DNA of 64,000 nucleotides from Verrucomicrobiales bacterium. Its GTDB lineage: Bacteria; Verrucomicrobiota; Verrucomicrobiia; Verrucomicrobiales; V1-33. The notes beneath the pieces were generated by a model, which was not told the origin of the DNA, made no database searches, and saw only the letters and a program-made list of their open reading frames with translations. The position numbers and the translations under genes were made by a program. Shown here one piece after another: positions 1,780-19,193 of the stretch (positions are counted from its first letter, which is position 1; each line of letters starts with the position of its first letter). The stretch covers positions 1 through 64,000 of the forward strand of contig JAQGPJ010000049.1 of assembly GCA_028293125.1 (NCBI GenBank). Reading direction: 5' to 3'.

Positions 1780-4700
1780 TCACGAATTCTCCCCCACAAT
1801 CCTCCGTGCTTTCTCCACTTCCCGCTTCCGGTCGCTCTCCTTCTTTTGCCGCTCCTGCTCCCCGTGCTCCCGGAGCTGCGCGGGAGTCATAGCCGCCAGC
1901 TTCTTTTTCTCCTCCTCCGCTTTTTTGGCCTTGGTGATTTTGGCCGCCTCCTTCACCACTTTGATATCGGTCTCCTCCTGATCATCATGGAGATTGTCTG
2001 CGGTCCGCATGGCGTCATCCACGATTCCGGCGGCGACCGCCGTGAATGAATCCAGTCCCTGCAGGACGCCGGCAATCTTTTTGCCATACCATTCAACCTT
2101 CTCGCGCTCTCCATCGGGAATCCCCTCAATGATATCCTTTCCGGCCTCATAGGCATTGGCAAACCGGGACAAAGGCCCGCTGTCCCCCTTGAATCCGTCC
2201 ACCAGATCCCGGAGCAGCGGGATGCCCGACAGCGGGCCGGTGGCGGCGGCCATCAGGAAATCCATGGGATTCCAATGGTCGGGGTCGAGGAAACCGAGCC
2301 AGCCCCGCTTTTCATCCCAGGCGTCATCATCGTCCTTCCGGTCGCGCATGGCGGCGGTGATGGCTTGGATCATCGGCCCCACGATCAGATGGGAAATCAC
2401 CAGCACCCGCAGGTCATTGGCATCGGCCTTTCCCGTGAAGGTGTTCCCCCAAGCGGTGAGCCACATGCTGGATTTCTGCCGGGCCTCGCTGCCGAACATG
2501 AAGATGCCTTTGCCGAGCCCGCCCAGACTCTGTTCAAACAGGGAGCGGTCCGACACCTCCACGGGCTGCGCCGTCCGGGCCACAATGTCCGCGGTCTCAT
2601 TCATGGCCGTGGCCTCCGCCATCTCCGGCGTCATGCCCGCGGCGATGGCGTGCCGGTAATGGTAGTCGTAGGCGATGGCGGCGCTGCCGGTGGTGAAGAA
2701 CGCATCCACGAAGCCCAGCGTCTCGATCCCGACGCGCAGGAAGTCCTGACGGATCCCCGGTTTGCCGGTGAAGGCCCCGGCCAGGGCGGCGCGCACCTCC
2801 GGGGAGAAACCGCCAGCGAGGCGGCGCCTGATCATAGGGCTGTTCCACATCGCTTTCGCATTGGCCCAGAAAGCGGTCTCCACTTTGCCCAGGGTTGCGG
2901 TCTTCACGCCGGTGGCCGCCAGCAGCAGCCCCAGCCCCCGGAGATAATCCGCCGCCGGCATGCGGTAGGCTGCACCCAGCAGGGCGGTAGACTGTTTCAT
3001 AATGGTCCCCAGCTTCCAGGCCAGCGCCACGTGCGCCTGCATGGAATAGAAGAACTGCCCCAGTTTGGAATGGGCCACCTTCAGGCCGTTGCCCTCGATG
3101 GACTCCATCCACTTGTTCACCGCCCCCAGCATCTGCGGCCCGTGCCGGGCGAGGATGGCCCGCTGCACGTCCGGACTGCTAAAAACACCGCGCAGCTCGC
3201 GGGTCACCTCCGACAGAGCTTTCCAGTGCGCGGTCTGGTTCACATGTCCGAAAAAGACTTGGAACGCGTTCTCCGCCTTCGGCTCCGCAGTGTGCAGGGT
3301 CCGGTCCTTGATGAACCCGCTGCGGAAACCGCCCTCCACTATGCCGGCGCCGGAGATATCCAGCCCGGTTTCGGAAATGCCGCGGTTGTAGAACAGGCCG
3401 GGGGCATAGTTCTCAATCCGGGGCAGATCGACCCCGAACATGTTCCGGAACAGGCGGGCCAGCGGCTCATATCCATCGGCGTAATTGCGGGCCAGCCATG
3501 CCCGCAGGTATTTCGCGGCCGGAGAAAGCTGCTCCTCGATTTGAGCCTGGGCCTCCGCGCCATAGCCGGCCTTCCGCAGTGAGGCTTTGTAGGCTTCCTG
3601 AGCCCAGAGCATGGAGAGGTAAACGGCCTCGGCCTCCGTGTGGCTCACATTCTCCACAGGGCCGTGCGCCGGCTGTTTCAGGGTCAGGTATTCCCGGGTG
3701 TCCTGATACCCGGCCCCGGTCTCCTCCGCTTTCAGATTGTGCTCCAGCATGGCCTCCCGCGCCTGCATCAGCTCCCGCGCCTCCGCCCGGCTGAAGCCGA
3801 GCGCCGCTGGATCCGCAGTGCCCTCCTTCCACTGGTCAATGGTCTCCACGGGCACGCGCGCCTCCGTTTCAATTTCCGGGGAATTGACCACTTGGACCGT
3901 CCGCTTTTTGCCCATGTCCCAGGCAGCTTTCCGGGCCGAGCGCCCCCGCTTGCCGGTGGCGGTCTCCAAAGCCCGCATCCATTCATGGCCAACCCGCAGG
4001 ACCTCATCCGCTTTCTGGGCCATGCCCTCGCGCACCTTCCCGGACCAGCGCACGGTCAGCACATGGTTGCGCCCCAGCAGGGTTTCCAGCACCTCCGTGA
4101 AGCTCTTGAGGGAGATGGGCCCCATCTTCAGCATGCCTGTGAGGGTGTCGGCATAGTCCTTCGCATCCAGAATGCGCTGACGGCTGATGCCGGCGGCGGC
4201 CAGGGTTCCGACCGCCATGTCCTGAAAGCCCTTCACCTCCGCCAGCCGGGCCTCCTCCAGCATGCGCCAGCGGTTGCGCCCCTCCACATACACCTGCTCC
4301 AGCAGATCCAGAGCCCGGATCACATGCGCGGCATCGTGGTTTTGTGGTTTCCCCAGCGCTCCGAACATGTCGAGAATCTGATGCCGCTCGAAAAGGGCGG
4401 CGGCCCCGTCATCGTCAGGCGGAATCAGGATGCCATGCTCATCCACACGGCCCAGCAGCTCCGCATCCAGTTTGACATTCTCCTCGCGCACCTGATCCGG
4501 AGTGAGGGCCATCACGCGTTCCGCCTCCTTGAAGAACCGGTGGGCCTCGGCACCGATTTTGCCCACCGGCTTTTTCCCGGCCTCCCGCTTCGGTTTGGCG
4601 CGCTCCATCAGAGCCTCCACACGCTCCATCGCATCCTGCTTGAGGAAGTCCTCCAGATGCTCGTCAGCCATCCGCAGGCGGTTCTCCAGCTCCTTGGCCA

Positions 4701-7700
4701 TGGCCTGCTGGGTGCTCAGCGATGCGATGGACGTCCACCCACCGACTTTGCTCCGGATCTCCGGCGGCAGAGCGGAAATGATGGCGTCCAGTGTCCGCAT
4801 ATGACGCAGCATCACAGCCCGCGCGTCCCAGTCCTGCGACTGGACGGCGTCCTGATCCGCTTTCCAGGCGGCGGCCTCCGCTTTCGCCGACGCTTTGGCC
4901 TGCTTCTGGGCGGCTTTGATATTGGCCATGGCGGCCTGCATGGCATCGCGGTTTTTCGCCTGCGTCTGCAGCTCCCGCCGCATGGCGTCCCACAGGGCAT
5001 CCGGCGAGGCATCACCGATTTCCCCCGCATCGAAAGCCTCCTGCGCCGCCAGGTCCGCCGATAGAGTTCCGCCGAAGCACATCGGTGGCAGGCCGGCGGC
5101 CCCGTCATATTCCCCGCCTGGACTGAATTCCGCATTCCCGGCAAACTGCATGGCGGCGGAACGGGACTGGATCCGGCCCGCCGCGCCAAAACGGCCGGCA
5201 CTGAACCGCTGGGCCAGCGGCCCGGCAAAGGCACTGGTGTCCTCCGCCGTCATGCCCAGCGCCGCCTGGGCGGAAGCCGTCAGAGTGCTCCAGATGCTTT
5301 CCTCCGCCTCCGCATAGGCCGAGGCCTCCCGGAATGCCTGCTCTTTGTCCAAGGAACGCTTGCTCCGTTGCTCCGCCACCGGCCTGCCTTCGCCGTTCCA
5401 CCTCTGCCGGCCCTCAGTCCAGCTGCGGCGAAGGGAATCCATGGCGGCCTTCATCTGATCAAAGACCCGGCGGCGGGCATCCGGATCACGCATCCGGCGC
5501 TCCATGCTCCGCGCCAGCTGGTCGAGGGTGTCCACCGGAGTCAGACGGAAGGAGGCGGCCTGCTCCTGCTCCGCGCCCTCCGCTTCTGCCCGGGCACGGG
5601 AATTGTCGGAAATGCGCTCCCCATTGCGCTCCGTGATTTTGATATCCGCCTCGCTGAACACGACGAAATTGCGTGTCACCTCTCCGCGCAGCGCATCCAC
5701 CGCCGCCACCAGCTCCGGGGACGGGTCCCAGTTCCTGACATTCTCCGAAAGCGCGGCACTGATGGCCTGGGCGGGATAATCGAACCCCAGCCAGTCATTG
5801 GCCTCCAGCTCCTTCAGAAACGCGGTCTGGCCGGCATCAAAGGCTCCGGTCTCCGCCTCCTCCATCACGGAATCAAAGTCGGCATTCTCCGGCAGGACCT
5901 CAAGGAAGCTGGCCTTGATCTCCTTCAGGGTTTTCCCGCGGCTGACCCCGTCCAGGTATTTGATGCCCCGGATCCCGTGGGCCAGCAGGAACTCGGAAAC
6001 GGCCTGTGGGGAGCCAATGGTGCGGAAATCGAACATCAAGCCCTGACCGTCAGCGCTATCAGCGGCATCCTCCGGATATCCTGCGGCCACAGAGGCCCGC
6101 CCCAGCGCCTCCCGGACTGCCGGACTGTTTTCCCCACCGTCCCAGTCCAGAAACTCGGATTCATCCGGGATGATTTCGACCGTGTAGAGGTTGCCTGTGG
6201 CCTTCTCAACCACATGGGCGAAGTCACCGTTTTGAATCAGCTCCGCCTGCCTGCGGTATGACGCAGCCTGATCCCTGGCCCACTGCGCGGAGGCCGGGCG
6301 GGATTCGTAATCGGCAATCCGGCCCTCCAAATACGCGATAGCCTCCGCCGGCGTGCCGTGCTCCGTGACAAACGATCCGGCCAGGTGGCGCTCATTGTTG
6401 GCGTCATATGGCGCGCCGTCCGCCGTCATCTCCAGATCGGAGAGAGCCTCCTGATACCATTCCGCCGTCCGCCGGGACTGGGCAAAGTAAATGCCCCAGC
6501 CGAATGACTGCCGCCCCTCACCGGTGCCAATGTTCCGGGTGGAAAACCGGTCCACCTGATGGGGCGTGCCGTGGTAAGCCGTGATGGCGAAGGTGGCCGG
6601 ACCCACCACGGCGGCATTCCCGTAGCTCCGCACCGGCGCGTCCTTTTCGACAGGCTGCGCCCGGGAGGACAGGGAAAAGGATATCCCGCCATCACCGGCC
6701 GGGGTTTTGTGCTCATTCTTGACGCCGGAGAGAAAGCGGGCCAGATTGTCACCAAGGCTGCCGGTGTCGGCCTGCGGATCCTCCGGGGTCGCAGGAGAGT
6801 TACCATCGGCGGCCTTATTCACTTCCAAGGCCTCCAGACTGTAGGCCATGTCCGCATCCGGCCCGGACAGCATCCGCTTCACCGTCAGCAGGACATTGCG
6901 GACTTTGCTGTCATCGAACGGCATCCAGGCATACCGGCGGTGAATCTCCGCCGCGCCGCGCTCGTAGTCGCGGGGCGTTTCCACGGAGGCCAGCACGGAG
7001 TTTTGCAGAAGCTCCGGCAGACGCGCCGCCGCCTCGAAATGGAGAGCGGGGGATTCACCGGCCCTCACATAGCCTGCATGGTTCAGAGCCTGCCGGGTGA
7101 TGGCAATTTCGCCTTCCGGCACAGAAACAGTCTGACGCCATGAGCTGCGGTTTTCGCTGATCCAGTTTTTCCAGACGCTCCTCCATTCCCGCGGAGTCCG
7201 GGCGGTTTCACCGGCCAGCGGATTGGGCTGCTGTGGCAGAACCTCCGGCGCGGCGGTGATGGATCTGATGCCGGCTCCCATGGGGCGGAGACTGAAAGCG
7301 ATGCCGTCATCCTCCTGCTCCGCTGTCGGCGGGGTGTAGGTGGTGCCCTCGTCGAAAATACGCCCCGCCTCCTCAACCACTTCCGCAGCGTGCCGCATAT
7401 CCGGGCCGATGCCGATGGAACGGTTAAGAAACTCATCAATGTCCAGCTTCCCGCCGGCTCCGCGACGGGCGGCATTGAGCCTCCGGGCTTTGTCCACCAC
7501 GACCGTCAGCCACTGCACATGGGCTTTCAGCCGCTCCACCAGTTCGGCCGCCAAACGGCTCGTGCGGACAGCCTCCTTCAACCGCGCCCACTGTCCCCGC
7601 GCATCCTTCCGGTTCCGCCGGGCAACACCGGCAATGCCGGATTCCGGCGTTTTCCCGGCGCGGCCTTTGGCGGTGGCATGGACCTGCGCCAGATCGGAAT

Positions 7701-10602
7701 AGGCCTCCTTCACGGCCGTCTGGTCCTGGGCGGCATCCTGCCCGTCCGTATAGCCGTTGAGGTAAGTGTCTCCAGTGACCTGCTCCACCTGCCGGATCAT
7801 GCCGGCCAGGTTTTTCCATGTGGTCTTTCCGGTGCGCACCCATTCGCCGGCTTCGGCCTCTGTCCGCTCCTCCAGCGCCGTGTACGGGCTCTCACCATGG
7901 GCGATGCTGATGATCGCTTTGGCCGTATCGCCGCGCACCTTAAGAGCGCTTTGCCCGCCTACCGCCATTTTGGTCCAGTCGATTGGAGCTTCCGGGGCTT
8001 TGGCCTCTGCCACCTTCATGCGCCGCTCCATGGCGTCGAATTCCCTCTCCGCCTGCTGCCGGGCCTCCGGAGCCGCGTTTTCATCCTGCATGACCGCCGC
8101 CCGCTCCACCAAGAAACCGGAAACAGTCTGCTCATTGCGGAAGGTCACCTGGCTCTCCTGCAATGGGGAAAGGGGATTGCGGTCCAGCTCCTCCAGCATG
8201 GCGAAGAGGGGGGCGTTCACCTCCTGGTCATAGTCGCTCATGTGCTGCCCTGCGGCTTCCATGGCCGCTCCCGCCGAGGGATGCTCTGTAACTGTTTCGC
8301 CGCGCGTGACCGTCCACACCGGCCGGCCTTCACGCGCGGACCGCTCCACGGTGATCTGCGCATCCTGCATCGCCGAGGCCTGTGCCGCAGCCTGGGCTTC
8401 ATGCTCCATCCTGAGCCGCTGGCGTCCCTCGCGCACCACGGCGTCCGTTTCCGCATTCCGCCTCACGGCATTCCGGGCCTCATCCAGCAGCTTCAGCCGC
8501 TCCACGGCATCGGTCTCCGCGAGGATGGCGGTCCGCTGGGCCTCACCGATCCCGGAGGCCATCAGCTGGGAATCCGTCAGATTGGAGGCAATCCGCTCCA
8601 GATTGCCGCGTTCAAGCTTCGCGCGGAAGGCATTGCCCCCGGCGCCGAGCGCCACCGCCGGCAGCAGGGCAAAGAAGGTGTCCAGTCTCTGTGCCCAGTA
8701 TCCACCCTCCCGGTTTTCATCGGCATACTTCCGCGCCTCATCCTGGCTGGGGAATTCCTTCCCGCCGGCCATCCAGATGTTCTTCGCGTCCCCGCCGCTG
8801 CCCTCCGTGCGCACGGTGACCTGCGGAGCCTCACCTTGGAGCACCTTTTTCCAGTCCACTTCCGGCACATCCCCGCCGAGTCCTTGCGCAATGCGCTGCA
8901 CCACCTGCGGGGTGATGTCCTGGGTGGCTTCGATCAGGTTCTGCTCCGCGAGACCGGCGGCCGCGAATTTACCGAAGTTCGCCCAGGCCGATGCCCGTGC
9001 GGTCTGAATGGCTTTGCCGAGCGACGATCCGGCCCCGATGGCCAGTGTGGTCTGCGCGTATTCCAGCCCGGTCTGAAGCCATGCCGCATTGCGGGCCAGC
9101 CCGTAGGCCTGCCGGGGATCCATGGCTGGATTCTGCTGCATCAGCTGCTGCGCATTCTGGTCCGCCATCAGGCCATACATGGGGATCATGGTGCTGCCGC
9201 CGCCGACAAGAGCCCCGAGGCGCCCGGCGCTGGCGGGCGACATTTTCCGGGTCAGAAGAGCCATCGCGATCTGCGGGGCAATGCTTTCCGCAAACGGATA
9301 AATCACTTTGCTGGCAACCAGATGCCCGGCCTTCCCCATGAACATGTCGCCGGCCTTGAGGGGATCGAGACCCGACTTGGCGAGCCCCTCCAGCTGCGCG
9401 CCCAGCACCGATTTTTCCCGCCGGAGTTTGATTTGCTGCCTCGCGGCGGTGATGTCCTCGGCGGTGACAGTCCTGTTGGGGAGCAGCGGCTCCAGCAGCA
9501 TGCCGCCCGCCCAGCTTTCGAGACTGGGCACCGTGGAATCCGCATAGTCCAGAAGGTCCTTATACCGGCCCCCGATGGTGTCCCCCGGCTTCAGCTTGTC
9601 CAACGCCTGCTCCGCATCCTCCAGGGCATCCATCTCCATGGTGCGGGCGGGGCTGATCATCAGGAATGCGGCGGACCCGCGCCCGAAGGCCTCGCCCAGC
9701 TGCCAGCCCTCCGGCTTTTCAGCACCGATGGCCTGCGCTTTCGCCGCCAGCAGCGTCAGTGCCAGCGGCCTGTCAGCGGCAGGGATCTTGATCAGCTCAT
9801 CCACCACGGCGTCCCCGCCATACACACCCGAGACCGCATCCCGCTCCCCTACCAGCCCGGCGAGAACGGAATGCACCGCCGGCGTCACCTCCGCAATGCG
9901 GCGGTTCAGTTCGGAATGGACGGTTTGCGCCACCGCCTCATACCGGTCCAGGGATTCCGGATCAAAGCCGGGTTTGCCCTTGGCTCCCTTCAGCCATGCG
10001 GAATACGCCGGCATGAAGGATTCTCCGCGCATGGCGGCGGCGCTCACCAGCCCGGTGAGGCTGCCCAGCTTGCCGGCGCTCGCCGCCTCATCATCGCCCT
10101 CCGGGCCCTGAATCAGATGGCGCTCATCCTTGCGCCGCTGCTGGAATGTCTTCGCTTCGCCCAGAAAGGCGGCATCCGATCCCAGCCCCTTGCCCTCGCC
10201 GAAAAGGGTGGTCGCCACCGCATCCCGCATTAGAGCCCGTGTTGGGCCTCGGAACCCTTTGCCGGTTTTGGAACGGATGTAACTTTCAACCACCAGCGAG
10301 TCCTTGGCGGCCGCCCGCGTCGGCTCATCGGGAGCCATGCGCAGGCTCATCAGGCCCTGTCCGGCGGTGGCCTTGTCGAAGTCCAGTGTCAGATCCTCCA
10401 GCACCCGGTCCTTCCGGGCCGCCTCCTGAAGATCCACGGCGCGGGGGAAGGCCTGCCTGAACGCGTCATACTGGTTCAGGTGCGCGGTATAAAAGGTCTT
10501 GAACTCGGGGGGCGCGGCGGCAACACCGCCGGCGGCGCGGATGGCGGCGGCCTGCTCATCGGTCAGGACGCCTTCAGGGGTGGCTGGGTCTTCGTAGGGC
10601 AT
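1780..10602 (-). CDS. Giant 2,940-aa polyvalent protein with ADP-ribosyltransferase domain
   Basis: A single uninterrupted 2,940-codon frame. Around residues 1343-1660 it has an ART-PolyVal type ADP-ribosyltransferase domain: AYHGTPHQVDRF, then GWGIYFAQSRRTAEWY, ending near FVVFSEADIKI. Upstream (about 1140-1290) a segment with HFEAAARLPELL resembles the LPD3-type domain of polyvalent proteins. Hydrophobic segments occur near 440-480 and in the 2530-2830 region, an Ala/Lys-rich coiled-coil-like stretch near 1880-1930, and a Lys/Glu-rich tail closes the protein. Polyvalent proteins of phages and conjugative elements are thought to be injected with the DNA to modify host targets or protect the entering DNA. 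The gene starts 12 bases after the 669-aa gene. Mono-ADP-ribosylation activity is predicted from motifs only. Confidence 0.85.
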   Translation of the reverse strand: MPYEDPATPEGVLTDEQAAAIRAAGGVAAAPPEFKTFYTAHLNQYDAFRQAFPRAVDLQEAARKDRVLEDLTLDFDKATAGQGLMSLRMAPDEPTRAAAKDSLVVESYIRSKTGKGFRGPTRALMRDAVATTLFGEGKGLGSDAAFLGEAKTFQQRRKDERHLIQGPEGDDEAASAGKLGSLTGLVSAAAMRGESFMPAYSAWLKGAKGKPGFDPESLDRYEAVAQTVHSELNRRIAEVTPAVHSVLAGLVGERDAVSGVYGGDAVVDELIKIPAADRPLALTLLAAKAQAIGAEKPEGWQLGEAFGRGSAAFLMISPARTMEMDALEDAEQALDKLKPGDTIGGRYKDLLDYADSTVPSLESWAGGMLLEPLLPNRTVTAEDITAARQQIKLRREKSVLGAQLEGLAKSGLDPLKAGDMFMGKAGHLVASKVIYPFAESIAPQIAMALLTRKMSPASAGRLGALVGGGSTMIPMYGLMADQNAQQLMQQNPAMDPRQAYGLARNAAWLQTGLEYAQTTLAIGAGSSLGKAIQTARASAWANFGKFAAAGLAEQNLIEATQDITPQVVQRIAQGLGGDVPEVDWKKVLQGEAPQVTVRTEGSGGDAKNIWMAGGKEFPSQDEARKYADENREGGYWAQRLDTFFALLPAVALGAGGNAFRAKLERGNLERIASNLTDSQLMASGIGEAQRTAILAETDAVERLKLLDEARNAVRRNAETDAVVREGRQRLRMEHEAQAAAQASAMQDAQITVERSAREGRPVWTVTRGETVTEHPSAGAAMEAAGQHMSDYDQEVNAPLFAMLEELDRNPLSPLQESQVTFRNEQTVSGFLVERAAVMQDENAAPEARQQAEREFDAMERRMKVAEAKAPEAPIDWTKMAVGGQSALKVRGDTAKAIISIAHGESPYTALEERTEAEAGEWVRTGKTTWKNLAGMIRQVEQVTGDTYLNGYTDGQDAAQDQTAVKEAYSDLAQVHATAKGRAGKTPESGIAGVARRNRKDARGQWARLKEAVRTSRLAAELVERLKAHVQWLTVVVDKARRLNAARRGAGGKLDIDEFLNRSIGIGPDMRHAAEVVEEAGRIFDEGTTYTPPTAEQEDDGIAFSLRPMGAGIRSITAAPEVLPQQPNPLAGETARTPREWRSVWKNWISENRSSWRQTVSVPEGEIAITRQALNHAGYVRAGESPALHFEAAARLPELLQNSVLASVETPRDYERGAAEIHRRYAWMPFDDSKVRNVLLTVKRMLSGPDADMAYSLEALEVNKAADGNSPATPEDPQADTGSLGDNLARFLSGVKNEHKTPAGDGGISFSLSSRAQPVEKDAPVRSYGNAAVVGPATFAITAYHGTPHQVDRFSTRNIGTGEGRQSFGWGIYFAQSRRTAEWYQEALSDLEMTADGAPYDANNERHLAGSFVTEHGTPAEAIAYLEGRIADYESRPASAQWARDQAASYRRQAELIQNGDFAHVVEKATGNLYTVEIIPDESEFLDWDGGENSPAVREALGRASVAAGYPEDAADSADGQGLMFDFRTIGSPQAVSEFLLAHGIRGIKYLDGVSRGKTLKEIKASFLEVLPENADFDSVMEEAETGAFDAGQTAFLKELEANDWLGFDYPAQAISAALSENVRNWDPSPELVAAVDALRGEVTRNFVVFSEADIKITERNGERISDNSRARAEAEGAEQEQAASFRLTPVDTLDQLARSMERRMRDPDARRRVFDQMKAAMDSLRRSWTEGRQRWNGEGRPVAEQRSKRSLDKEQAFREASAYAEAEESIWSTLTASAQAALGMTAEDTSAFAGPLAQRFSAGRFGAAGRIQSRSAAMQFAGNAEFSPGGEYDGAAGLPPMCFGGTLSADLAAQEAFDAGEIGDASPDALWDAMRRELQTQAKNRDAMQAAMANIKAAQKQAKASAKAEAAAWKADQDAVQSQDWDARAVMLRHMRTLDAIISALPPEIRSKVGGWTSIASLSTQQAMAKELENRLRMADEHLEDFLKQDAMERVEALMERAKPKREAGKKPVGKIGAEAHRFFKEAERVMALTPDQVREENVKLDAELLGRVDEHGILIPPDDDGAAALFERHQILDMFGALGKPQNHDAAHVIRALDLLEQVYVEGRNRWRMLEEARLAEVKGFQDMAVGTLAAAGISRQRILDAKDYADTLTGMLKMGPISLKSFTEVLETLLGRNHVLTVRWSGKVREGMAQKADEVLRVGHEWMRALETATGKRGRSARKAAWDMGKKRTVQVVNSPEIETEARVPVETIDQWKEGTADPAALGFSRAEARELMQAREAMLEHNLKAEETGAGYQDTREYLTLKQPAHGPVENVSHTEAEAVYLSMLWAQEAYKASLRKAGYGAEAQAQIEEQLSPAAKYLRAWLARNYADGYEPLARLFRNMFGVDLPRIENYAPGLFYNRGISETGLDISGAGIVEGGFRSGFIKDRTLHTAEPKAENAFQVFFGHVNQTAHWKALSEVTRELRGVFSSPDVQRAILARHGPQMLGAVNKWMESIEGNGLKVAHSKLGQFFYSMQAHVALAWKLGTIMKQSTALLGAAYRMPAADYLRGLGLLLAATGVKTATLGKVETAFWANAKAMWNSPMIRRRLAGGFSPEVRAALAGAFTGKPGIRQDFLRVGIETLGFVDAFFTTGSAAIAYDYHYRHAIAAGMTPEMAEATAMNETADIVARTAQPVEVSDRSLFEQSLGGLGKGIFMFGSEARQKSSMWLTAWGNTFTGKADANDLRVLVISHLIVGPMIQAITAAMRDRKDDDDAWDEKRGWLGFLDPDHWNPMDFLMAAATGPLSGIPLLRDLVDGFKGDSGPLSRFANAYEAGKDIIEGIPDGEREKVEWYGKKIAGVLQGLDSFTAVAAGIVDDAMRTADNLHDDQEETDIKVVKEAAKITKAKKAEEEKKKLAAMTPAQLREHGEQERQKKESDRKREVEKARRIVGENS

Positions 10603-13448: not shown

Positions 13449-13796
13449 TCATGCTGCCGGGCGGCCGGCGGGATGAATGAAGCTGGAGGGTGGCACTCCA
13501 TTGCGGATTCCCGGCTGAAGAACCCAAGGGCCGCGGTCAAGCCGGGCATAAACCGGATCCGTCCTACCCGCCGTGAACGGGGATTCCCATTCCACGCGCC
13601 CTGTCCATGCGGCGCGGTAGATGTCGGCGGGGTGTATGCCCAGGGTTTCAGCAGCGGCCAGGAGAATGGCGTCACAGTCAGCCAGCAGGCCGTCAGCCAC
13701 TTCGGGAACATCCAAGCCTGTGAGCTCCTCATTCACATACTGGAGCCAGCTGATGGGCCGGTCATTCGGCACGATCATGGAAACGAAGGCGCTCAT
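13449..13796 (-). CDS. Unknown 115-aa protein translationally coupled to the helicase gene
   Basis: The start ATG (13796) overlaps the helicase stop codon in an ATGA arrangement, which argues for translational coupling and for the gene being real. The protein has acidic helices near the N-terminus (NEELTGLDVPEVADGLLADC) and a Pro/Ala tail. No family recognised. Downstream, 140 bases separate it from the 200-aa gene; that gap contains the short direct repeat TTGCCGTCTT (twice, around 13381-13401) and nothing else I can name. Confidence 0.55.
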   Translation of the reverse strand: MSAFVSMIVPNDRPISWLQYVNEELTGLDVPEVADGLLADCDAILLAAAETLGIHPADIYRAAWTGRVEWESPFTAGRTDPVYARLDRGPWVLQPGIRNGVPPSSFIHPAGRPAA

Positions 13797-15067
13797 TTCT
13801 CGGCAAAGCGGAAGTTCGTCTTGTGGAACCGCAGGGGGATTCCTGATTTCTCCCCGCTGAGCCGGCCAATGGGGCCGTGCGCCTCGCCGCCCCGGTGTTT
13901 GGAGACCCGGAGGAAAAAGTTGAAGTCCGGACCATCGATCTTCGGGCCGTGAGGGTTCTTCGGATCCGGAATCTTGTCCGGCAGGTCGATCACGTGCAGA
14001 ACCACATCGGCGTCCTGCTCGATGGCGCGGGACTCACGCAGCTCCCCGTCGGCATTGACCTGGCTCAGCGCAATCACCACGGCGTCCAGTTCCTTGGCCG
14101 CGATCTTCAGGGTGCGGCTCATATCCGCCACAACACGTTCCCGGCTCTCGCGGCTGCCGCCCTCCGAGCCCAGCAGCTGCAGGTAATCGACCACGAACAC
14201 TTTGATGCCGTGCCGGGAGTTCAGGAGTTTGGTTTTTGCAGCAATGCCCCTGGCGGTGATGTTGCTGGTGGAATCAACCCATAGAGGGAGATTGCGCACA
14301 GTTTCCATGGCCTCCTCCTGGGTGCTGTGAACGCCTTCGCTGAAAATGCAGCGGGTGATGAGATCCTGTTCGCTCATCTCCAGGCTGAAAGCCGCCACCG
14401 GGGCGCCATCGAGGGCCGCCTGTACGGCGAGGTTCATTCCCAAAACCGTTTTTCCGCCACCGGTGCGGCCGGCAACGATCACCAACTGACCGCCGCGGAG
14501 TCCGCCCTTCAGCATTTTGTCCAGGGTGGGGAAGCCGGTGCGGTATCTGGGAATCAGCACCGGGTTGGCCAGGGCGGCCTCGATGTCCTTCACGACGGCG
14601 GAGGCCTTGCGGGCGGACCGGCTGGCGGGCTCACTGCATGATTCCTCGAAAAGCTCCCGGATGCCGTCTGCAATTTCTTCGAAGCTCCGCGCGCTCTCGA
14701 CGTTCGCCTGGAGCCTTGCGATGGCCCGCTGGGCTCTTTCCCGCCGGGCGTGGTTTGCGACGTCCCTGGCGTAATCCTTGACGAAAAGCGGCAGGACTCC
14801 ATCGGCAAGTCCGATCAGCAGGGAACGGAACTGGGCGAACTGGTGATGGGCGCTGTAGGCCTGCTGGAGCCCATAGGGGGTGATCCGCTGGCCCTTGTCG
14901 GTCATTTCCCGGAACCAGCGCCAGGCGCAGCCGAAGGCTTCCTGGGAGAAATCGTCAGGGCTGACGATGTCAAAGACTTCGAGGAAGCGTTTTCCGTCAT
15001 CGGTGATCACGGAAATGAGATTCCTCTCGGATTCAAAGCGGTCGGGAAGTGGGGAGTAATCGTTCAT
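13793..15067 (-). CDS. dnaB: DnaB-type replicative helicase
   Basis: A 424-aa DnaB-family ATPase of phage or plasmid type. An N-terminal helical domain (about 10-105) precedes the RecA-like core (about 165-424) with Walker A GRTGGGKT near residue 207, Walker B VFVVDYLQLL near 296, and the arginine-finger region SKHRGG near 391. DnaB helicases unwind the fork as hexamers. At 424 residues it is shorter than chromosomal DnaB (about 470), as usual for element-borne copies. It follows the winged-helix replication protein by six bases, giving a replication module of initiator then helicase, as in many phages. Expected partner is the host primase, since no primase is visible here. Confidence 0.93.
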   Translation of the reverse strand: MNDYSPLPDRFESERNLISVITDDGKRFLEVFDIVSPDDFSQEAFGCAWRWFREMTDKGQRITPYGLQQAYSAHHQFAQFRSLLIGLADGVLPLFVKDYARDVANHARRERAQRAIARLQANVESARSFEEIADGIRELFEESCSEPASRSARKASAVVKDIEAALANPVLIPRYRTGFPTLDKMLKGGLRGGQLVIVAGRTGGGKTVLGMNLAVQAALDGAPVAAFSLEMSEQDLITRCIFSEGVHSTQEEAMETVRNLPLWVDSTSNITARGIAAKTKLLNSRHGIKVFVVDYLQLLGSEGGSRESRERVVADMSRTLKIAAKELDAVVIALSQVNADGELRESRAIEQDADVVLHVIDLPDKIPDPKNPHGPKIDGPDFNFFLRVSKHRGGEAHGPIGRLSGEKSGIPLRFHKTNFRFAEK

Positions 15068-15073
15068 AAATAG

Positions 15074-15913
15074 TTAGAAGCCTGCTGCTTTGAGAATGGA
15101 ATTTGAGGATTGGGAAGAGTTGGAGCGGGAACCGGGAGGAGCGGGAACCGGTCTGGCGAGCTCCGCCAAAATCTGAGGCCACTTGTGGCAAAGGCCGGCG
15201 AGGCTGGAGCCATCCAGGCAGTGCCGCGCAAATTGGTCATTCCGCGCCCGGAACCATGCCTGCTCGGCGGTGGTCAGGAATTCCTCGGCTGTGCCCTTCC
15301 AGGATTGCAGGAAGGTCTGGAGGGCTTTGAAATCCCGTCCGACAAGAACCAGCGGCTCGCCGGTGGCGGTTTGGTGCCGGGCATCAATTTTGGAAGTGAT
15401 TTCGTGATGCCGGGGATCCGCGGCTTTTGCGGCGGCGGTTTTCGAGCCCGAAACTTTCCCCTCCGGATTTCCCAAATCCGGAATTTCGGAAGCACCTTCT
15501 TGGATACCCTTCTTGGTGTACCTTATGTGTCCCGTTTTTCGGGTCACCCTCCGTCCCGTTTTTCGGGTCAGGTTGAGTTCCGCTTTTCGGGCTGGCCCGT
15601 TTTCCGGGTTAACCCGTTTTTCGGGTTGGGTTTCCTTGTTTGATTCAAGGGGTGGCTGGGTCTCCGCCAATTGATAGTTGGTGCTCTTGCCTGGTCTGGC
15701 CTCCCGGATCAGAAAGCCTCTTTCCGCCAGTTCCGCGAGGGCTTCGAAAACTGTTTTCCGATTCAGTCCCGTGGTTTCGGCGATGGTTTCCACCAGCGGA
15801 AAGCACTTTCCATCCGTGCCCGCACGCCGGCACAGCGTTGCAAAGACCCGGAAAGCCTTCATGGACAAACCGGCATCGTCGATGGCTGCCGGAACGAACA
15901 TCGAGGCCTTCAC
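15074..15913 (-). CDS. Winged-helix replication initiator-like protein carrying internal iterons
   Basis: A 279-aa protein with GTG start at 15913, overlapping the stop of the upstream gene by four bases. Residues about 15-85 form a winged HTH (TIAETTGLNRKTVFEALAEL, then RGFLIREARPG), as in phage replication proteins of the lambda O or DnaD/replication-N type. The middle (about 90-140) is low complexity and corresponds to a DNA repeat cluster; the C-terminal part has Trp-rich helices (LQSWKGTAEEFLTTAEQAW). Lambda O also has a DNA-binding N-terminus, an origin inside its gene, and a helicase-loading C-terminus. Position directly before dnaB supports initiator or helicase-loader function, but the exact family is not certain. 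Confidence 0.78.
   Translation of the reverse strand: MKASMFVPAAIDDAGLSMKAFRVFATLCRRAGTDGKCFPLVETIAETTGLNRKTVFEALAELAERGFLIREARPGKSTNYQLAETQPPLESNKETQPEKRVNPENGPARKAELNLTRKTGRRVTRKTGHIRYTKKGIQEGASEIPDLGNPEGKVSGSKTAAAKAADPRHHEITSKIDARHQTATGEPLVLVGRDFKALQTFLQSWKGTAEEFLTTAEQAWFRARNDQFARHCLDGSSLAGLCHKWPQILAELARPVPAPPGSRSNSSQSSNSILKAAGF
15531..15626. repeat. Five iteron-like palindromic repeats inside the replication gene
   Basis: Five copies of a 14-bp element, consensus CCCGTTTTTCGGGT, at 15531-15544, 15555-15568, 15579-15592 (degenerate), 15596-15609 and 15613-15626. The spacing is 24, 24, 17 and 17 bp. Each is an inverted repeat CCCG-N5-CGGG. Copies 1-3 share a reading frame (TRKTG, TRKTG, ARKAE), but copies 4 and 5 fall in the two other frames (NPENGP and PEKRV). 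The DNA, not the peptide, is therefore conserved. Repeats inside an initiator gene next to a helicase gene recall the lambda ori iterons inside O. An origin role is inference. Confidence 0.7.
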
Positions 15914-16206: not shown

Positions 16207-16320
16207 CGCATTTTCGATTTGCGACGCGGCGGCGGTGACGTAAGCTGAGAAAGCCTTCCACAGCTTTCAACTTACGCCCTCGCCCGCACGTCTGATTTTC
16301 GGACTGCGGGCGTTGGTTTT

Positions 16321-16506
16321 TCAGGCGGCGGAATCCCGCTCAAACTTCAGGATATCCTCCAAAGAGAATCTGACTCCCCGGATACCGAATCGGTATGCCC
16401 GAAGCTTTTGATCCCGCCGAAGACGGACGATTGTCATATGGGACACGCTCCAGCGCTTTTGAAGCTCGGCGGTCGAGAGAAAGGGTTTCAGTTCAGTTGT
16501 TATCAT
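16321..16506 (-). CDS. AlpA/excisionase-like HTH protein
   Basis: From ATG 16506 it encodes 61 residues: LSTAELQKRWSVSHMTIVRL is a typical MerR-superfamily HTH_17/AlpA helix-turn-helix, and the wing-like YRFGIRGVRFSLEDILKFE completes the domain. Small proteins of this type act as excisionases (recombination directionality factors) or as regulators in prophages and integrative elements. An upstream TTG (16584) would add 26 residues without domain content, so the ATG is preferred. It is the first gene of the leftward cluster and faces the non-coding repeat region. No integrase is visible in the window. Confidence 0.75.
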   Translation of the reverse strand: MITTELKPFLSTAELQKRWSVSHMTIVRLRRDQKLRAYRFGIRGVRFSLEDILKFERDSAA

Positions 16507-16785
16507 TGCGGATAACCGGCCCTCCCATGATGGGCGGAACTCCGGTCCGCTCCTAAGTCGGGATACCACATCTTCAGAAGTCAAATTGAAATGTTACCCT
16601 AAATTATTGGCGGATATTCCGTGCTAAACCTTGAGAGACTCACCCCGCAAGACCCTGAAACTGGCGCTGGGAAACACTTCCTAGTCAAAATTCCGGATTC
16701 TGGGTGCGCGCGCTTCAGATTTGCCAATGCTTTTAAACAGCGCTCTGTCACTTGAGGCTTGGAAAAGCCTCCGCCCAAATGCCTA

Positions 16786-16818
16786 AAAAACGCCGAGCGC
16801 GGCGCATACGGCGTTTTT
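16786..16818. terminator. Bidirectional terminator-like hairpin
   Basis: AAAAACGCCG at 16786-16795 pairs perfectly with CGGCGTTTTT at 16809-16818 across a 13-base GC-rich loop. The stem has an A-tract on the left and a T-tract on the right, so the RNA of either strand would end in a U-tract. It sits in the long non-coding region and could insulate the divergent units. Because no gene is read into it directly from close range, another structural role is possible. Confidence 0.55.
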
Positions 16819-16914
16819 AGCCTGTGCGAGCGGTCACTTCCATCCTGATTTCAACCATACAAAAGAGCAGTTTTTCTGACCTTTCCGTCTTCAATTTGAG
16901 CCGAGTGATGGGTA

Positions 16915-16959
16915 CTCAATCCACTCAATCCACGGAATAAGCGGATACAGTGGATTGAG
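16915..16959. repeat. 9-bp-period array 1
   Basis: Five 9-bp units in register: CTCAATCCA, CTCAATCCA, CGGAATAAG, CGGATACAG, TGGATTGAG. The first two are exact copies and are the exact reverse complement of the last, so the array is also a large imperfect palindrome. No protein-coding frame explains it. Confidence 0.7.
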
Positions 16960-17033
16960 AGTGAATCAGAGACATCGGGCAGTCCTTCTCGAAATCTGTT
17001 CAAAAATACAGATTTGTGCTGCTTTATCGGCGG

Positions 17034-17069
17034 TTGAAACAGCTGTATCAGCTGTATCAGTCTATACAG
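17034..17069. repeat. 9-bp-period array 2
   Basis: Four 9-bp units in register, all ending in CAG: TTGAAACAG, CTGTATCAG, CTGTATCAG, TCTATACAG. The two central units are identical. GCTGTAT and ATACAGC also form an inverted repeat across units three and four. Confidence 0.7.
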
Positions 17070-17156
17070 CCTGCGGGAGGCTTGATTTCAGCCGTGCAAA
17101 AAGACCCGTTTCCCGCCTTTTGAGCCTCTCTCCAAAGCTTGATTTTACAGCGATCG

Positions 17157-17183
17157 TCGGCTGATTCTGCCGATACAGCCGAT
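17157..17183. repeat. 9-bp-period array 3
   Basis: Three 9-bp units in register: TCGGCTGAT, TCTGCCGAT, ACAGCCGAT, sharing GCYGAT. A shortened relative, ACAGCGAT, lies just upstream at 17147-17154. The junction reads GATACAG, a string also present in array 1 and, on the minus strand, in array 2. Confidence 0.6.
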
Positions 17184-17269
17184 AGAGGTTGGCGGACCGG
17201 TCTGATTTTTGCCCTCGTGCATTGAGACCGAATGAGGAATTCCCCTCCTCCTCCTTCCCGGTTTCCATC

Positions 17270-17305
17270 GGAATATCAGGAATAGAAGGAATAGCAGGAA
17301 TATCC
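17270..17305. repeat. 9-bp-period array 4
   Basis: Four 9-bp units in register, all beginning GGAATA: GGAATATCA, GGAATAGAA, GGAATAGCA, GGAATATCC. If translated, either strand gives a three-residue periodic peptide (for example GISGIEGIAGIS), but no gene of plausible length carries it. Confidence 0.7.
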
Positions 17306-17392
17306 TGCCTTGGAAGCTGTGGAAGTCTTGCTCCCAAGGTCAGGCGGACACTGGTCCGGGAGCCGGCTCAAGCCGTCCGCGCAGGCGGAATC

Positions 17393-17428
17393 TGACGATT
17401 ACGCCGATAACGCCGATATCGTCGATAA
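17393..17428. repeat. 9-bp-period array 5
   Basis: Four 9-bp units in register: TGACGATTA, CGCCGATAA, CGCCGATAT, CGTCGATAA, with a shared CGAT(A/T) core. It is the array nearest the rightward gene at 17560 and 130 bases upstream of it. Confidence 0.7.
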
Positions 17429-17559
17429 AACCGCTCTCCCTTCATGGCTTCCTAGCCGGCGAGCCATGCCGCCGCCTGAAAAACCAACGCCCGCCCAAGG
17501 AAAAGTGAAGATCATAAATAGCATTGAATTTTATGCCGGTTTTGTGCTACTATCGCAGC

Positions 17560-17991
17560 ATGTCAACCACCGCTGACGCAACTTTGGAGGCCGCCTCATT
17601 CACCCACCCTGTTTGGGCCAAACCTATTTTCTCACGGACTGACGCCCTTTCCGTTCTTCCTGGGGGAGGCTCCGGGATTCTCCGCCAGCTCCTGGCCGCC
17701 CGCTGGATTGCGCCAAGCGCCGTTGAGGGCCGCCCGTTCTACCGCTCGGCGGATGTGCGCACCGCTTTGGAGCGGCTTGGCAAAGGTGAGTTGCCCAAGC
17801 CGATCCATGTGTGGAAGGCGGCAATCGGAGGCGAGGGCCGCCCTGTCGCCCATGTGGTCCTTGAAGCCGGCAGGGGCCGGAAGCGTGCCGCCTGCGGCTG
17901 TGGCAGCGAGTGGTTTTCCGCCAGTCCGGGCATGGGGAGGTGTCCGCGGTGCGCCGGGTTGGCGAAACTTCTTCGGGTGGAGGAGTCCTGA
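17560..17991 (+). CDS. Unknown 143-aa protein with Cys-rich C-terminus
   Basis: ATG at 17560 gives MSTTADATLEAASF; an upstream start at 17524 is possible but adds no conserved sequence. Residues about 25-75 look like a winged or HTH fold (GILRQLLAARWIAPSAVEG then FYRSADVRTALERL). The C-terminus has CGCGSEWF and CPRC, a likely zinc-binding pair of knuckles (CxC and CxxC). It begins the rightward unit that continues, after 31 bases, with a terminase-small-subunit gene. A DNA-binding regulator or packaging accessory is the best guess. Confidence 0.6.
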   Translation: MSTTADATLEAASFTHPVWAKPIFSRTDALSVLPGGGSGILRQLLAARWIAPSAVEGRPFYRSADVRTALERLGKGELPKPIHVWKAAIGGEGRPVAHVVLEAGRGRKRAACGCGSEWFSASPGMGRCPRCAGLAKLLRVEES

Positions 17992-18022: not shown

Positions 18023-18478
18023 ATGCCCCAGCTCAAATCACCACGGGATGAAATCTTCTGCCAGCAGATTGCACTGGGGAGGACGGACTCCGACGCCTAC
18101 CGCATCGCCGGGGGCAAAGCCAAACAGCCAAACCGCCGCACCACCGCGCTGCGCGCCAAGCCGGGGATTGAGGAGCGAATCGCGGAGCTGCGGGCCGGCA
18201 CCCAAGCGGAATTTGAAGTCACGAGGGAAGACCTGATAAACTTCTATGGCCGGGTCCTCATGACACCGGTCGGTGAAGTGAATGAGGATTCGCGTCTGGC
18301 TCAGGAGGTGAGCACCACCTATGCCGGGGAGAGCTACACCAAAAAGGTCAAGATGGTCAGCAAGATCGACGCGGCGCGGGAACTGACCAAGCTCATGGGC
18401 TGGTATGAACCCGAGAAAGTAGAGGTGTCTGGGACGCTGCAAGGCCTGCTTGGCAGGCTCATGGGCGTTCGGAAATAA
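18023..18478 (+). CDS. Phage terminase small subunit-like protein (first copy)
   Basis: From ATG 18023 (MPQLKSPRDEIFCQQIALG) it encodes 151 residues. The N-terminal helix-turn-helix region with QQIALGRTDSDAYRIAGG and the C-terminal KIDAARELTKLMGWYEPEKVEV match the pattern of small terminase subunits, which recognise the pac/cos site and recruit the large subunit ATPase. The motif before GWYEPEK is typical of this family in siphophage-like elements. It is followed after 33 bases by a second protein of similar type. No large subunit follows, which is unusual. Confidence 0.75.
   Translation: MPQLKSPRDEIFCQQIALGRTDSDAYRIAGGKAKQPNRRTTALRAKPGIEERIAELRAGTQAEFEVTREDLINFYGRVLMTPVGEVNEDSRLAQEVSTTYAGESYTKKVKMVSKIDAARELTKLMGWYEPEKVEVSGTLQGLLGRLMGVRK

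Positions 18479-19117: not shown

Positions 19118-19193
<76 letters not shown>

Follow-up and report, generated by a model that had tools for sequence, protein, structure and literature searches.

Five short tandem arrays with a 9-bp pitch lie inside 515 bp of non-coding DNA in a prophage of the genome studied here. The reading given in the initial annotation is partly supported: the arrays are not five unrelated codes, since four are variants of one degenerate unit, and together they make a dense cluster that probably belongs with a kind of array scattered through the lineage. We tentatively regard them as a binding platform for a winged-helix protein that would advance along the DNA in steps of 9 bp. 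If the arrays are indeed read by such a polymer, they would represent regulatory DNA in which the spacing is conserved and the letters are free, and which is missed by motif-based annotation.

Layout and setting of the arrays

The window, that is, the whole stretch of DNA analysed here, covers positions 1-64000 of C118, one of the 120 contigs of a 6.48-Mb draft genome whose gene content suggests a verrucomicrobial bacterium. The prophage takes up roughly the first 19.1 kb of the window; on one side it is cut off by the end of the contig, and on the other a tRNA-Lys gene bounds it (Table 1). The array region occupies a gap of ~1 kb, with the gene of an HTH_17/excisionase-family winged-helix protein (hereafter the HTH_17 protein) on one side and a divergent gene for a 143-aa protein on the other, and it separates the replication operon from the terminase side of the prophage. 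Its GC content is 51%, as against 63% for the prophage. The arms of a 29-nt inverted repeat bracket the HTH_17 gene together with the arrays; matches to an arm in the genomes G048 and G004 were judged to be unrelated coding or promoter sequence. No relatives of the 143-aa gene were found in the phages, viral contigs or other relatives' genomes searched. A promoter-like stretch upstream of this gene (GCCGGTTTTGTGCTACTAT, window 17530-17553) has an identical copy in a promoter region of the same-genus genome G004 (L073 1500-1530). The prophage also encodes a protein of 2940 aa (window 1780-10602) with no PHROG match.

Table 1. Positions in the window of the five arrays and of the prophage features around them
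Feature	Position	Strand	Remarks
DnaB-like replicative helicase	13793..15067	-	
O-like replication initiator with HTH_36	15074..15913	-	
Four origin-like iterons, CCCGRAAAACGGG	15531..15625	-	At 15531, 15555, 15596 and 15613, within the gene of the O-like initiator; expected number in the window 0.41
29-nt inverted repeat, left arm	16306..16334	+	3' end of HTH_17 gene; related stretch at the equivalent place in C61
HTH_17/excisionase-family winged-helix protein	16321..16506	-	61 aa from ATG; TTG-started ORF reaches 16584
Two-way terminator-like palindrome, CTAAAAAACGCCG...CGGCGTTTTTAG	16783..16822	.	Between HTH_17 gene and arrays; fold no better than shuffles
Array A1	16914..16968	+	Inverted units CTCAATCCA CTCAATCCA, then CGGAATAAG CGGATACAG TGGATTGAG AGTGAATCA; hairpin-forming
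Array A2	17035..17070	-	Minus-strand units CTGTATAGA CTGATACAG CTGATACAG CTGTTTCAA
Array A3	17151..17187	+	CTGATTCTG CCGATACAG CCGATAGAG; inverted pair with A2, unit in common
Array A4	17270..17305	+	GGAATATCA GGAATAGAA GGAATAGCA GGAATATCC
Array A5	17396..17431	+	CGATTACGC CGATAACGC CGATATCGT CGATAAAAC
29-nt inverted repeat, right arm	17466..17494	-	97% complementary; bounds the array region
143-aa gene, divergent	17560..17991	+	No assigned function; kept in paralogous prophage C61 (63% identity)
Terminase small subunit	18023..18478	+	
tRNA-Lys gene	19118-19193		Prophage boundary

All five arrays reported in the initial annotation are present. TRF called four of them as period 9, A3 being weaker (lag-9 score 12); the perfect CTGTATCAG part amounts to 2.3 copies only, and mismatches are required to reach four units. 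The annotation had also proposed that lag 9 be set against other lags and shuffled controls, and this comparison was made on 2.05 Mb sampled as stretches of the 6.48-Mb genome. Intergenic lag-9 segments scoring at least 13 numbered 14, versus 3.25 in shuffles; lags 8, 10 and 11 were low (1, 4 and 1 segments) and lag 13 gave 2, but lag 7, the sole lag stronger than 9, gave 25 (3.75 in shuffles). At lag 9 the plain autocorrelation of intergenic DNA (0.2754) did not exceed that at lag 6 (0.2766), so the signal comes from separate arrays rather than from an overall periodicity. Five lag-9 segments in 515 bp are unique in the 2.05 Mb, where the next-best place has three, and among the other lags four segments were reached elsewhere at lag 12 only. 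Judged by eye from the coordinates, the arrays show no shared 9-bp phase except that A3 and A5 are in phase, for which the chance is 1 in 9.

The earlier view that the period stays constant while the unit changes holds for the pitch, which is steadier than the sequence both here and in the dispersed class described below; the units, however, are not all different. When phase and orientation were left free in the alignment, the degenerate unit CNGATANAG proved common to A1, A2 (minus strand), A3 and A5, with CGGATACAG, CTGATACAG (twice), CCGATACAG, CCGATAGAG and CCGATAACG as its members. None of 400 column permutations, which preserve the composition and regularity of each array, attained the score observed for these four. 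For all five arrays, the result was again 0 of 400 with trimmed tracts, the trimming having been picked after a first look, and p=0.01 in the first, untrimmed test. When the reference was a pool of genuine 9-bp arrays unrelated to these, low-complexity coding repeats among them, the five did not resemble one another significantly (p=0.09). A unit common to all five arrays is less secure than that of the four. Two short words recur in excess, GCCGATA with 5 occurrences (0.08 expected) and ATACAG with 6 (0.31 expected). The units of both orientations that had been noted in A1 were recovered there as an inverted repeat.

C61, a 5.25-kb contig of the same genome, is a piece of a paralogous prophage with equal gene order, in which DnaB is 77% identical (first 250 residues), the 143-aa protein 63% and the HTH_17 protein 47%. 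Its corresponding gap is only ~135 bp, and arrays are absent from it. They are also absent from C94, which carries a third HTH_17 homolog (identity is about 45% for the homologs of C61 and C94), and from the viral contig L139 (DnaB 67% identical), and are thus an accessory feature of this prophage alone. At 29 loci of HTH_17 homologs there was no lag-9 excess over background, and the homologs showed no association with arrays. Inverted pairs of 9-bp-spaced repeats were seen within prophage replication genes near HTH_17 homologs at four loci (L567 2116-2177, L554 209-280, L566 390-450 and L565 2798-2870); the core of these coding-sequence repeats differs from phage to phage, and they are possible origin iterons.

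Dispersed nine-base arrays in the lineage

Intergenic arrays of the form GTCMAYNNN, with a fixed 9-bp pitch and three variable bases, are dispersed through this genome and those of its relatives. Successive intergenic GTCMAY motifs of the genome stand at spacing 9 in 22 pairs, at spacing 10 in 2 and at spacings 7, 8, 11 and 12 in none; three of four control hexamers gave 0 or 1 at spacing 9, while the fourth, CTGMAY, gave 3 at 9 but 15 at 7. The whole genome holds 45 triple matches to GTCMAYNNN compared with 1 control match, its relatives G008, G011 and G012 have 73, 48 and 60 matches, and such arrays are present in 38 of 188 genomes of the class that were searched. The final three bases differ between neighbouring units, which plain slippage fails to explain, and one array in G012 shifts from GTCAATAAG to GTCCATCCC at a constant 9-bp step (L608 3776-3837). 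Among 79 parsed arrays, neighbours no more than 150 bp apart are oppositely oriented in 16 cases and point the same way in 1; this count excludes the arrays of G008 and G012, which are often direct. No description of these arrays was found in the literature searched.

The window arrays resemble this dispersed class in their strict 9-bp pitch, partly variable units, inverted pairing and intergenic position, and the A1 unit CTCAATCCA is one base away from the GTCAATCCA arrays of G004 and G006. In contrast, the core of the class is GTCCAY/GTCAAY and not CNGATANAG, and a site of the class usually has just one or two arrays, compared with five here. The window cluster would probably be an outlying, dense case of the class. 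The dispersed arrays offer a cheap means of seeking a protein that might read them, through pull-down with an array duplex.

Some further repeats were encountered in these searches. GTCMAYNNN arrays lie within 300 bp of 7-bp arrays (TTTTCAG, CCTGAAC) in 6 of 24 cases, versus 18 of 2000 random places, the latter not limited to intergenic DNA, and the loci L065 10229-10382 and L066 9053-9130 resemble copies of one composite, partly palindromic element. Most GGAATANNA arrays in public collections belong to unrelated taxa, and some come from PVC genomes (Chthoniobacter L224, Lentisphaerae SIG84); these PVC genomes have intergenic 9-bp arrays (TAGGAATAC, ATAGGAGAA) in both orientations (L244, L245 and L280 of Lentisphaerae SIG84, and L224 7110-7220 of Chthoniobacter flavus). 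GGAAT-type patterns in relatives occur at many periods (7, 8, 9, 10, 12) and were uninformative. The host genome also contains a CRISPR-like array with the repeat GTTTTCCCCGCCCACGCGGGGATGGACCG (L035 8200-8440).

A candidate reader and competing explanations

A fixed step combined with loosely kept letters is consistent with a protein that polymerizes head to tail, and the likeliest reader would be a small winged-helix protein akin to BldC and Xis, with the HTH_17 protein as the first candidate. This protein scores 33.2 bits against PF12728 (cut-off 27) and 29.7 bits against the excisionase family TIGR01764 (cut-off 28.8). Nothing significant was found for it in the PDB by sequence, and its matches there come from the fold search only: with a model of pLDDT 82, the top ones were BldC on the smeA-ssfA operator, Pukovnik Xis and BldC-whiI, and GIsul2 excisionase and RdfS were among the first 14. 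BldC (6ama) and Pukovnik Xis (4j2n) gave TM 0.71-0.81, probability 1.00 and E 0.015-0.035, the Foldseek E-values being weak (0.015 at best), as with any 60-aa domain. BldC has been reported to bind one 9-bp repeat, AATTXXXX(C), per protomer in head-to-tail fashion, to tolerate diverged repeats and to form filaments, reading the AT-rich patch via the groove shape and the C-G pair via Arg30 (PMC5859096). In a residue alignment using a BldC sequence identical to that of PDB 6ama, Arg30 aligns with the invariant R28 of the HTH_17 protein and the wing residue Arg48 with R46, whereas Lys26, Trp31 and His46 are not conserved. The BldC-type consensus RATWNNNNC is found in 4 of 4 units of A5 and in 2 of 3 of A3; A1, A2 and A4 retain the AT-rich patch alone. 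A5 is the only place in the 6.48-Mb genome with at least three tandem RATWNNNNC units. The initial annotation had imagined a protein or process that counts nine bases. For a protein there is precedent in the BldC class, and the product of the adjoining gene has this fold by prediction, but no sign of any nine-counting process was seen.

The stretch may therefore be pictured, tentatively, as a long control region between two divergent prophage transcription units, in which the five arrays would act as direct-repeat binding rows with a 9-bp step, all variants of one degenerate unit near CNGATANAG and set in both orientations. The HTH_17 protein would bind one unit per protomer and polymerize head to tail, so that the step would outweigh the exact letters, and bending of the DNA by the bound protein might repress or switch the flanking promoters. 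The array region of the phage could possibly derive from the wider intergenic arrays of the lineage, which the window arrays resemble. We infer both the binding of the window arrays by the HTH_17 protein and its regulatory outcome. Against such a platform stand the HTH_17 homologs of C61 and C94 that lack arrays, the 29 homolog loci without excess, the lack of arrays in L139, the non-significant likeness of the five in the test against real arrays, the non-conserved BldC residues Lys26, Trp31 and His46, the weak Foldseek E-values and the step of about one helical turn described for well-studied excisionases (10-11 bp for Apl).

The main rival, possible but doubtful in our judgement, is that the repeats are not under selection and that the 9-bp arrays of the lineage built up in unconstrained intergenic DNA through copying, conversion or slippage, without serving the prophage. 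The abundance of dispersed GTCMAYNNN arrays, the near match of the A1 unit to the GTCAATCCA arrays, the lack of the region in C61 and its low GC content all agree with this. Yet the units produced by slippage are identical, and those seen here keep six positions but vary at about three; units within each array differ at about two to four positions and are not the near-identical neighbours of a slippage array. The fixed pitch would require a separate cause, the inverted pairing (16 to 1) is unexpected under plain slippage, and five arrays per 515 bp are unmatched in 2 Mb. It is also conceivable, though unlikely, that the class-wide intergenic arrays, with their 9-bp step, part-fixed core, three free bases and inverted pairs, are rows for a host nucleoid or switch protein that polymerizes by 9 bp, the prophage region being a dense cluster that was captured or imitated. 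Hairpins in RNA or single-stranded DNA, serving for example as terminators, attenuators or a single-strand origin, make an improbable explanation. On either strand, all five arrays do fold below their own shuffles (z -1.2 to -3.9), A1 most strongly (z -2.9 and -3.9), A2 and A3 are inverted partners, and a terminator-like palindrome lies nearby. However, the single z-scores are modest except for A1, most stems have no T run after them, an Rfam search gave no match, and the free triplets of dispersed GTCMAY pairs do not pair (for example, at L065 10229-10382).

The replication link drawn in the initial annotation turned out to be weak. The operon that encodes the O-like initiator and DnaB lies next to the array region, and in other prophages replication genes close to HTH_17 homologs contain inverted 9-bp repeats (L554, L566 and L567), as might suit iterons for replication or partition to which an initiator or partition protein of the prophage would bind. 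The O-like gene, however, already holds four iterons that are 13-bp palindromes, so the upstream 9-bp arrays are unlikely to be the main origin of the prophage; at the equivalent place C61 has a different repeat (L009 about 1980-2030). Replication iterons would consist of one unit conserved with the same initiator, but C61 has the same replication genes and no arrays, and a scan of prophage genes revealed none for partition. Altogether we consider such iterons quite improbable. Least credible, and strongly disfavoured, is a relic of a translated repeat protein, in which 9 bp would be 3 codons: A4 reads GIS GIE GIA GIS in one frame, and on the minus strand A2 reads LYR LIQ LIQ and A3 reads LYR LYR QNQ, but the arrays lie in different frames, no ORF exceeds 91 aa and the small ORFs of the region match no Pfam or PHROGs family at E up to 1. 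The region is thus non-coding, as had been claimed.

Comparison with known systems

Like the origin iterons of lambda-type phages, the window arrays are tandem repeats near replication genes. The prophage's own origin-like iterons, however, sit elsewhere, within the O-like gene, which is the lambda-type location of an origin. The phage recombination directionality factors (lambda Xis, 186 Apl, P2 Cox, Pukovnik Xis, RdfS) have in common with the present case an HTH_17/excisionase-type winged helix and tandem low-specificity operators between early promoters. In phage 186, the Apl excisionase has such operators between facing phage promoters, with a spacing of 10-11 bp (PMC7498355), while RdfS filaments form with no obvious sequence motif (PMC11963761). 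The published spacing, about one helical turn, differs from the 9 bp seen here, and the window arrays are separated by ~1.7 kb from the prophage end at tRNA-Lys and so do not lie at att.

The BldC operators of Streptomyces (whiI, smeA-ssfA; PMC5859096) are different in that the window has five separate arrays, in both orientations and in a prophage setting; A1, A2 and A4 are without the C of AATTXXXX(C), and of the BldC contact residues checked, the HTH_17 protein has equivalents of Arg30 and Arg48 only. As in those operators, the window arrays are 9-bp direct repeats of variable copy number, whose degenerate units contain an AT-rich patch. BldC, moreover, is a small MerR-like winged-helix protein, and here a protein of the same predicted fold, a candidate binder, is encoded beside the arrays.
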